Part shown: in pieces, positions 6,149 through 11,177 of the stretch | How the letters are laid out: the number at the start of each line of letters is the position of its first letter | Position numbering within the stretch: position 1 is the first letter of the stretch | Source: Gemmatimonadota bacterium | GTDB lineage: Bacteria; Gemmatimonadota; Gemmatimonadetes; Gemmatimonadales; Gemmatimonadaceae | Length of the DNA stretch: 40,244 nucleotides | Assembly: GCA_016218305.1 (NCBI GenBank) | Contig: JACREJ010000029.1 | Location: forward strand, 1-40,244 | Direction of reading: 5' to 3' | Position numbers and translations under genes: made by a program | Notes under the pieces: model-generated | What the model saw: only the letters and a program-made list of their open reading frames with translations | Databases searched by the model: none | What the model was told of the DNA's origin: nothing

Positions 6149-8809
<2,661 letters not shown>

Positions 8810-8890: not shown

Positions 8891-10501
8891 TCAGCTCGCC
8901 AGCGACCGGCTCAGCGCGCGCGCCAGCGCGTCCGCCATCGGCGCAACGGCTGTCTCGTCGAAATCTCCCATGAGGGCGGTCTGCATCCATTGTCGCGCGC
9001 GCAGGTACCCGCTTTCCCAGCTGACCGCATACCCCGCATTCAGCACGCGCGCCGCGAGATCCGAGGTGTCCCGCGCCGAGCCCGCCTGCCACGTCGCCAC
9101 CGCGGGCGAGGCATCGACGCCCGAAACGAGTGGCTCGTGTCCGCTGGCGGCGAGACGGTCGCGCAGCGCGCGATTGCCGCGCTCAATCGCGGCATATCGC
9201 GCAGGCCAGTCGGTCGAACGGAGTGCCGCGGCGAGGGCCGCGACGAGCAGCGACGACTGCGTGAACGGCACGCCATCTCCGTCGAGATACCGTGCCAGGT
9301 CCAGGTAACGTGGCAGCGCGCTGTCCCCGGGAAACGGCACCTCGGCGCAGCAGACGATGGCCAGGCCGGCGACGGCGCCCAGTGCCTTGCCGCTGACCGT
9401 CGTCGCCAGGTCCACGCCGTCGAGCGACATCGGCACCGTACCGGCGCTCGACGCGGCGTCGAGTGCCAGCCGCGCGCCCGTCGCGCCGCACACGTCCCGC
9501 AGCGCCCCCAGGTCGTTGAGCATGCCGGTGCTCGTCTCGTGATGCACCACCCAGATCCATCCGGCACGCACCCGTCGCGCCGCGCGCACCACGCGTTCCA
9601 GCGGAAGCGGCGACCCCCACGGCGCGCGGAGCGCCTCGTGATCAATGCCATGCCGACGGGCGTGGTCGATCAGTCGCTCACCGAATTCGCCATTCGAGCA
9701 GACGACCGCCGGGCTGCCGTCACGCGCGATCTGGGCGGCGACGGCATCGTTGGCGAGCGTGCCCGACCCCGCAAAGACGGCCACGTGTCGCGCACCGATC
9801 AGCTCGGCGAGCGACCGGCGAATCAGCGCAAGATCCTCCGCGAACTCCGGCGACCGGTGCGAACGCAGGGGCTCCGCGATGCGGCGCCGCACCTCGGCCG
9901 AGAGCGGAACCGGACCGGTCAGGAAGGTCGCCGGCGCGGCGCGGCGATCACTCGTCAGGCCAAGCAACGACCCCGCGTGGCTGACGGCGGATTCCCGCGT
10001 CAGGTACATCGGCTGGAACGCCGCCTCCTCGGTGCCCATGAGCGGTCCGAAGGGCACGAAGCCCATGTGCGTGTACAGCTTCAGCTGTCGCGTGGTGGCG
10101 GAGATGACCGCGGTGTCGAGGCCGCGCGCCTCGCACTCCTCCACGACCCGCATCAGCAGCGCCCGCAGGACGACGCCGTGTCGGTACCCCGGCTCGACGG
10201 CCAGCAGGCGGATCTCACACAGCCGTCGGCCCGGCGGCAGGTAGCGGTCCACGTCGGGCAGCTTGGCGTCGATCGAGAACGGGCGCTGGTCGCGGAGCGC
10301 GAGCATGCCCGCCAGCTTCTCGTGGTCGCGCGCGATGATGAACGTCGACTCGTCTTCGAACCGGTCGATGAGGCGGCCGTCCGCGCGCGGCGCGTGCTGC
10401 GGGATCTCGGCCGCAAAGGTCTGGTGATTCAGGCGCCGGATATCGTCGAAATCATCTGCCGTCGCAAGCCGGACGGTCAGGGCGGCACTCGAGTCGCGCA
10501 T
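8891..10501 (-). CDS. Fusion of a GNAT-type acyltransferase and a class V (PLP) aminotransferase
   Basis: A 536-residue two-domain protein. Residues 1-175 are a GNAT/N-acyl amino acid synthase-like domain (ADDFDDIRRLNHQTFA; ESTFIIARDHEKLAGMLALR; CEIRLLAVEPGYR; LYTHMGFVPFGP). Residues 190-536 are a class V aminotransferase of the alanine-glyoxylate/phosphonate type: LTGPVPLS opening, SHRSPEF, AGSGTLAND (cofactor phosphate), HETSTG, cofactor Asp348 in LDAASSAG, and PLP lysine 372 in SGKALG. Start ATG at 10501 has GGGGGGA seven bases upstream; the frame stays open 40 codons further but that part is Arg/Pro-rich and lacks a site. A likely job is making an amino compound and acylating it; substrates cannot be read from sequence. 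It is divergent from osmC. Confidence 0.8.
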   Translation of the reverse strand: MRDSSAALTVRLATADDFDDIRRLNHQTFAAEIPQHAPRADGRLIDRFEDESTFIIARDHEKLAGMLALRDQRPFSIDAKLPDVDRYLPPGRRLCEIRLLAVEPGYRHGVVLRALLMRVVEECEARGLDTAVISATTRQLKLYTHMGFVPFGPLMGTEEAAFQPMYLTRESAVSHAGSLLGLTSDRRAAPATFLTGPVPLSAEVRRRIAEPLRSHRSPEFAEDLALIRRSLAELIGARHVAVFAGSGTLANDAVAAQIARDGSPAVVCSNGEFGERLIDHARRHGIDHEALRAPWGSPLPLERVVRAARRVRAGWIWVVHHETSTGMLNDLGALRDVCGATGARLALDAASSAGTVPMSLDGVDLATTVSGKALGAVAGLAIVCCAEVPFPGDSALPRYLDLARYLDGDGVPFTQSSLLVAALAAALRSTDWPARYAAIERGNRALRDRLAASGHEPLVSGVDASPAVATWQAGSARDTSDLAARVLNAGYAVSWESGYLRARQWMQTALMGDFDETAVAPMADALARALSRSLAS

Positions 10502-10751: not shown

Positions 10752-11177
10752 ATGGATCGGAAGGCAGAAGCGCAGTGGTTCGGCGACCTCAAGTCAGGCC
10801 ACGGCACGATGTCGGTCGGCAGCAAGGCCTTCAGCGGCCCTTACTCGTTCATCAGCCGCTTCGAGGGCAGCAAGGACACCAATCCCGAAGAGCTGCTGGG
10901 CGCCGCGCACGCGGCCTGCTTTTCCATGGCGCTCTCCAACACGCTCGCCCAGCGTGGCACGCCGGTCACGAACGTCACGACGACGGCCGTGGTGACGGCC
11001 GAGAAGACCGATGCCGGCTTCGCCATCACCCGGATCGCGCTCACGACGCGCGGCGTCGTCCCCGGCCTGTCGGCCGAGGAGTTCAAGAAGGTCGCGGAAG
11101 AGACAAAGACCGGCTGCATCGTCTCGCGTGCACTGGCCGCCGTGCCGATGACGCTCGACGCGGAGCTGGTCGGGTAG
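10752..11177 (+). CDS. osmC: OsmC-family peroxiredoxin-like protein
   Basis: A 141-residue protein of the OsmC branch of the OsmC/Ohr family, thiol-dependent hydroperoxide reductases acting in the cytoplasm. It matches OsmC along its length: a tri-peptide MDRKAEAQW start, the NPEELLGAAHAACFSMAL helix containing the first redox Cys, and a second Cys in KTGCIVSRAL, near residue 122. These two cysteines form the catalytic pair in the family. ATG at 10752 has AGGGAGA eight to ten bases upstream; the same frame is open to 10500 but without supporting site. The divergent gene is the acyltransferase-aminotransferase fusion. A role in peroxide or osmotic stress is inferred from family. Confidence 0.92.
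   Translation: MDRKAEAQWFGDLKSGHGTMSVGSKAFSGPYSFISRFEGSKDTNPEELLGAAHAACFSMALSNTLAQRGTPVTNVTTTAVVTAEKTDAGFAITRIALTTRGVVPGLSAEEFKKVAEETKTGCIVSRALAAVPMTLDAELVG

Follow-up and report, generated by a model that had tools for sequence, protein, structure and literature searches.

What might be made by a protein that carries, on one chain, an acyltransferase of the FeeM type and a class V PLP-dependent domain of the aminotransferase fold? Such a protein is encoded at positions 8891 to 10501, on the reverse strand, of the 40,244-nucleotide stretch of Gemmatimonadota DNA analyzed here (hereafter the window; GenBank assembly GCA_016218305.1, contig JACREJ010000029.1). An earlier note on this DNA had suggested that amine formation and acylation are linked in the protein to make an N-acyl amino compound, perhaps a lipid or signal. 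Aminolipid pathways that combine a GNAT N-acyltransferase with an O-acyltransferase are known (PMC11631085), and the function that we propose, with about an even chance of being right, is that of a bifunctional enzyme of amide-lipid (i.e., aminolipid-type) synthesis, including O-acylation by a PlsY-like protein where one is present. New here are a recurrent linkage to a PlsY-like gene, a neighboring gene of the LTA-synthase family in some relatives, and an invariant glutamine (Gln507) in the PLP domain.

Integrity and distribution of the fused gene

The gene is a single intact open reading frame of 536 codons plus a stop (536 aa), with exactly the boundaries that the earlier note had given. 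The same frame stays open for 40 codons upstream of the Met at 10501, and the start was placed at this Met because the alignment of relatives begins there. The window genome holds one copy, which is evidently under purifying selection, with dN/dS values of 0.08-0.16 in each domain in comparisons with four congeners. Intact copies in many genomes, together with this selection, rule out an assembly artefact or a chance fusion; both domains are intact and selected, and the fusion is conserved. A full-length AlphaFold2 model from 92 sequences had a mean pLDDT of 91 and a pTM of 0.72 (one plasmid-derived row was left out of the structure-model alignments). The domains are joined by a linker of low model confidence (approximately residues 176-189; 9935..9976, reverse strand), in which pLDDT falls below 50 at residues 181-186 and across which T168 and G196 have 20-37 residues between them in 92 relatives; given the pTM and this linker, the relative placement of the two domains cannot be read from the model.

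Both flanking genes lie on the forward strand. The divergent neighbor (10752..11177) is an open reading frame found where the earlier note had placed an osmC gene, and the osmC-like name is carried over from there; the convergent neighbor (6149..8809) is ppdK-like, as named by inspection, and the fused gene stays beside it in congeners. Neither is thought to be part of the system, and a promoter/terminator scan gave no match.

Full-length relatives with 33-85% identity occur in three phyla, Gemmatimonadota, Acidobacteriota, and Bacillota. Relatives were present in 22 of 395 Gemmatimonadota and 9 of 297 Acidobacteriota genomes as well as in 162 of 261 and 26 of 199 genomes of two Bacillota orders, counts that were obtained with strict E-value limits and that include a few split-form or partial matches; named carriers include Gemmatimonas, Fredinandcohnia, Sporosarcina, and Cytobacillus. 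The 92 proteins compared share 38 invariant residues, which are distributed over both domains. In a quick tree (midpoint root, short search), the Bacillota proteins fell apart from a Gemmatimonadota-Acidobacteriota group. A split form is found in three genomes (G100, G191, and G848), where the domain genes are adjacent in different frames, with start and stop overlapping as judged from the sequence at the joints. The N-terminal domain was detected in 27 of 179 genomes of the window's family, as fused or adjacent split genes among the copies looked at. Separate, unlinked domain genes, which the earlier note had named as evidence against its reading, were not seen in relatives (small fragments and contig-edge copies were inspected in part).

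In genome G260 (locus L271), the fused gene has decayed, with frame breaks in both domains, and hence can be lost. Plasmid-borne spread was considered and rejected, as a single plasmid copy, in Cytobacillus, was found. A record named Arthrobacter beigongshangensis REN13 (L024) holds a Sporosarcina-type copy, and its genome belongs to Sporosarcina's order; the name or the contig of this record is probably wrong.

The acyltransferase and PLP domains

With regard to the N-terminal domain (residues 1-175; 9977..10501, reverse strand), the Pfam models FeeM (PF21926; 36.5 bits, gathering cut-off 27) and Acetyltransf_5 (31.3 bits, cut-off 22.4) were both passed, the former also by Bacillota and Acidobacteriota relatives. 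Residues F29, E32, I33, Q35, D46, R70, P74, S76, K80, E96, R98, L99, and R107 are invariant among the 92 proteins. The best solved fold match of this domain, which was also modeled alone with AlphaFold2 (70 sequences, pLDDT 88), was FeeM 2g0b (Foldseek E 1.1e-9; VIA Z 18.1, rmsd 3.1, 173 residues of chain A); AHL synthases and some acetyltransferases followed within 1-2 Z, and acetyltransferase matches had Z of 14-17. The fold common to FeeM and the AHL synthases BjaI, LasI, and TofI covers residues 2-182 of the window protein, which differs from these enzymes in its low identity to them (17%) and in being fused to a PLP domain or, in the split relatives, encoded by a gene that overlaps the one for that domain. 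Sequence and predicted fold thus support a FeeM-like domain, as the earlier comparison with N-acyl amino acid synthases had anticipated; since acetyltransferases match too, the GNAT fold alone is no proof of a long acyl chain.

The C-terminal domain (residues 190-536; 8894..9934, reverse strand) is of class V (PLP fold type I) and passes Aminotran_5 at 28.0 bits (cut-off 21.5), so that both parts of the fusion exceed their Pfam cut-offs. Its structure matches are 2dr1, 7e7g, PhnW, and AGT, at Z of about 40-42. The predicted PLP Schiff-base lysine, Lys372 (codon 9386..9388, reverse strand), and the predicted ring-nitrogen aspartate, Asp348 (codon 9458..9460, reverse strand), are invariant in all 92 proteins; Lys372 lies in an SGK motif that aligns with the SQK of free-standing class V aminotransferases. 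Thr323 and the GSGT phosphate loop (245-248) are conserved, with G245 and G247 invariant in the same set. Aminotransferase-type motifs and the PLP lysine are hence intact, as had been claimed, and the fold, PLP lysine, Asp, ETSTG, and phosphate loop are shared with PhnW/AepZ and the alanine-glyoxylate aminotransferases. The earlier assignment to an alanine-glyoxylate/phosphonate-type aminotransferase holds for the fold but not for the substrate site: the position of the substrate-carboxylate Arg of other class V aminotransferases is occupied by Gln507 (codon 8981..8983, reverse strand) in all 92 fused and all three split proteins, versus Arg in all 17 free-standing class V aminotransferases, controls that were drawn from the same searches as the family. 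A one-residue alignment gap adjoins the site, and residues 505-507 include no conserved Arg. In human AGT, Arg360 forms a salt bridge with the substrate carboxylate (PMC9340776); an invariant Gln at this position means that the substrate, or even the reaction, must differ, and we infer either a substrate without the usual carboxylate at the Gln507 site or a different reaction. A basic residue at position 503, present in 85 of 92 proteins, might compensate for the lost Arg. The best NCBIfam aminotransferase model, PhnW-AepZ (TIGR03301), gave 123.3 bits against an equivalog cut-off of 360.8, and other near models (relatives of PhnW-AepZ) also remained far under theirs; scores this low mark the PLP domain as a relative of PhnW-AepZ and not as that enzyme.

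Linkage to a PlsY-like protein and other neighbors in relatives

A PlsY-family gene lies immediately upstream of the fused gene, on the same strand, at 45 of 98 loci, these 45 being in Bacillota and Acidobacteriota (two of them in Acidobacteriota), with gaps from -23 to +90 nt and many overlaps of 4 or 1 nt. This count is a lower bound: a family search found a PlsY-like gene directly upstream in two Gemmatimonadota genomes as well (G282 and G351), with GTGA and ATGA stop-start overlaps, which gene calling had missed in their GC-rich DNA. In the genomes checked, the linked copies are additional to canonical plsY, and they form one clade versus canonical PlsY (SH-aLRT 98; 95 with 90 rows). Pairwise identities of the fusion and of its PlsY-like neighbor were correlated across 42 loci (Pearson 0.91, Spearman 0.65, shared ancestry not removed), and all five tested Bacillota without an adjacent copy had a clade member elsewhere in the genome. 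A genetic tie between the PLP-GNAT protein and a distinct PlsY-like protein is present in each of the three phyla. No member of the PlsY-like clade was found in the window genome or in its congener G001, both of which have only canonical PlsY, nor in another four genomes of the window's family and three of Acidobacteriota that were tested. The earlier observation that no other biosynthetic gene is adjacent thus applies to the window genome, but not to the many relatives with PlsY-like or LTA-synthase-family neighbors.

Compared with PlsY itself (acyl-phosphate:G3P acyltransferase, 5xj5), the linked proteins are paralogues that keep Ser35 and His92 (each 45 of 45) and mostly Arg45 (41 of 45), His177 (42 of 45), and Lys104 (38 of 45); residues are in aaPlsY numbering, which is offset by one from the PDB chain, and their roles are taken from PMC5700162. 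Acceptor-site residues are altered, by contrast: 35 of the 45 have Arg instead of Thr41, 42 no longer have Ser142, and only 20 retain Asn180. Together with Ser35, Arg45, and Lys104, Asn180 belongs to the clamp for the G3P phosphate. As Ser142 is naturally variable in PlsY at large (52.6% among all homologues; PMC5700162), the changes at Asn180 and Thr41 are more telling. One PlsY-like group combines N180D with K104M. The linked copies pass the PF02660 cut-off, and one of five tested passes an NCBIfam PlsY cut-off.

At 17 loci in some Bacillota, the next gene downstream of the fusion belongs to the LTA-synthase family, although these calls include one 66-aa fragment and one other protein without the GKTSD motif; on a Cytobacillus spongiae plasmid, plsY-like, fusion, and LTA-synthase-family genes stand in a row. 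In nine loci of one Bacillota clade, where there is no PlsY-like gene, a ThiO-like FAD oxidase (202 bits, under the ThiO cut-off; e.g., L115:6644-7759) is encoded directly upstream instead.

Proposed function and alternative explanations

Under the proposed function, the C-terminal PLP domain would make a small amine, most likely by transaminating a substrate without the usual free carboxylate, and the FeeM-type GNAT domain would N-acylate this amine, taking a fatty acyl group from acyl-ACP or acyl-CoA. The resulting amide would, in many lineages, pass to the dedicated PlsY-like membrane acyltransferase, whose O-acylation with acyl-phosphate would give a two-chain lipid, and in some Bacillota the LTA-synthase-family enzyme would be added, perhaps attaching a head group. 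In the window's lineage, the missing PlsY-like partner makes a single-chain N-acyl product likelier, although a second acylation by another enzyme may occur. These reactions and their order, as well as the acyl length and the amine, are what we infer; the earlier suggestion that amine formation is joined to acylation for a lipid appears strengthened, because the linkage to PlsY-family and LTA-synthase-family genes is conserved in relatives. The logic would resemble that of OlsB/OlsA and GlsB/GlsA (PMC11631085), in which a GNAT-type N-acyltransferase is followed by an O-acyltransferase from an adjacent gene; here, however, the partner is PlsY-like (acyl-phosphate) rather than PlsC-like, the window genome has no adjacent partner, a fused PLP domain would make the amine, and the best Pfam match is FeeM. 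The further proposal of a new class of membrane aminolipid in Bacillota, Acidobacteriota, and some Gemmatimonadota, made by a PLP-GNAT enzyme, fused or translationally coupled, together with a repurposed PlsY that adds a second chain via acyl-phosphate, with use by an LTA-synthase-type enzyme in some species, is tentative, and we would sooner expect it to fail than to hold. In the open literature, we found no class V PLP domain fused to an N-acyltransferase with a PlsY-type partner, and a search there for bacterial ceramide synthase as a parallel likewise gave no match. If the aminolipid reading is right, many Bacillales would have a lipid pathway that has yet to be described (162 of 261 sampled genomes in one order), hidden by the annotation "aminotransferase class V-fold PLP-dependent enzyme"; the second, altered PlsY clade would gain a role, and acyl-phosphate chemistry would be tied to amide lipids.

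Some observations count against an aminolipid: the gene is an orphan in the window genome and G001, and nine Bacillota loci have the ThiO-like oxidase in place of a PlsY neighbor. The lack of a PlsY-like partner in the window genome and in those members of its family that were tested would fit an enzyme that makes a soluble N-acyl amino acid or amine, i.e., a FeeM-like signal or surfactant and no membrane lipid, with the PlsY-like neighbor serving another role; FeeM-type enzymes make N-acyl tyrosines, as cited in PMC11631085. Such a product would leave unexplained both the LTA-synthase-family gene and why a PlsY-like gene is so tightly and repeatedly coupled to the fusion in three phyla, and we consider it unlikely, if still a serious contender. 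The ThiO-like oxidase in nine loci, along with the fold match of GNAT acetyltransferases, could instead indicate detoxification or acetylation of a small molecule, with acetyltransferase and aminotransferase acting on an amino compound unrelated to lipids; the nearest sequence family and fold are enzymes that transfer acyl chains, however, and with the lipid-gene linkage this makes detoxification the poorest candidate.

The lost substrate Arg bears on the PLP step, and it may fit a domain that is not an aminotransferase. As a decarboxylase, aldolase, lyase, or racemase, this domain would use an amino acid as substrate and hand its product to the GNAT domain for acylation; the invariable loss of this Arg and the change from the usual SQK to SGK around the PLP lysine would agree with such chemistry, while a fold and PLP site very near those of aminotransferases (Z about 40) speak against it, and we regard it as improbable. 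The Gln507 site would also suit a carboxylate-free acceptor, as in a more specific form of the aminolipid reading in which the PLP domain would convert dihydroxyacetone (phosphate) to serinol (phosphate) by amination, N- and O-acylation of which would give an amide analogue of diacylglycerol or phosphatidate. RtxA provides a precedent for aminotransferase activity on DHAP (PMC3222319), the altered PlsY residues would fit a changed acceptor, and one hydroxyl group would be left free for glycerol-phosphate transfer, so that the LTA-synthase-family enzyme could perhaps take the amide as its acceptor. Yet the amino donor would still require carboxylate recognition, and N180D together with K104M in one PlsY-like group speaks against a phosphorylated acceptor, so that only the dephospho form would fit that group; we think the serinol form quite unlikely.

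Comparison with other proteins and additional observations

PntC-AEPT of Treponema (6pd1) likewise has an N-terminal catalytic domain and a class V aminotransferase domain; its N-terminal domain is a cytidylyltransferase, whereas that of the window protein is of the acyltransferase type. Methionyl-tRNA synthetase 9os7 was rejected as a similar fusion, as the aminotransferase domain matches it but the N-terminal domain of the window protein has no match in 9os7. Some Bacillota contain a third PlsY-family clade (L243, L244, L233, and L239), which lacks two residues of the G3P clamp, Ser35 and Arg45. Finally, in a small Bacillota group, a DUF2785 gene directly follows the fused gene (L103:6616-7455).
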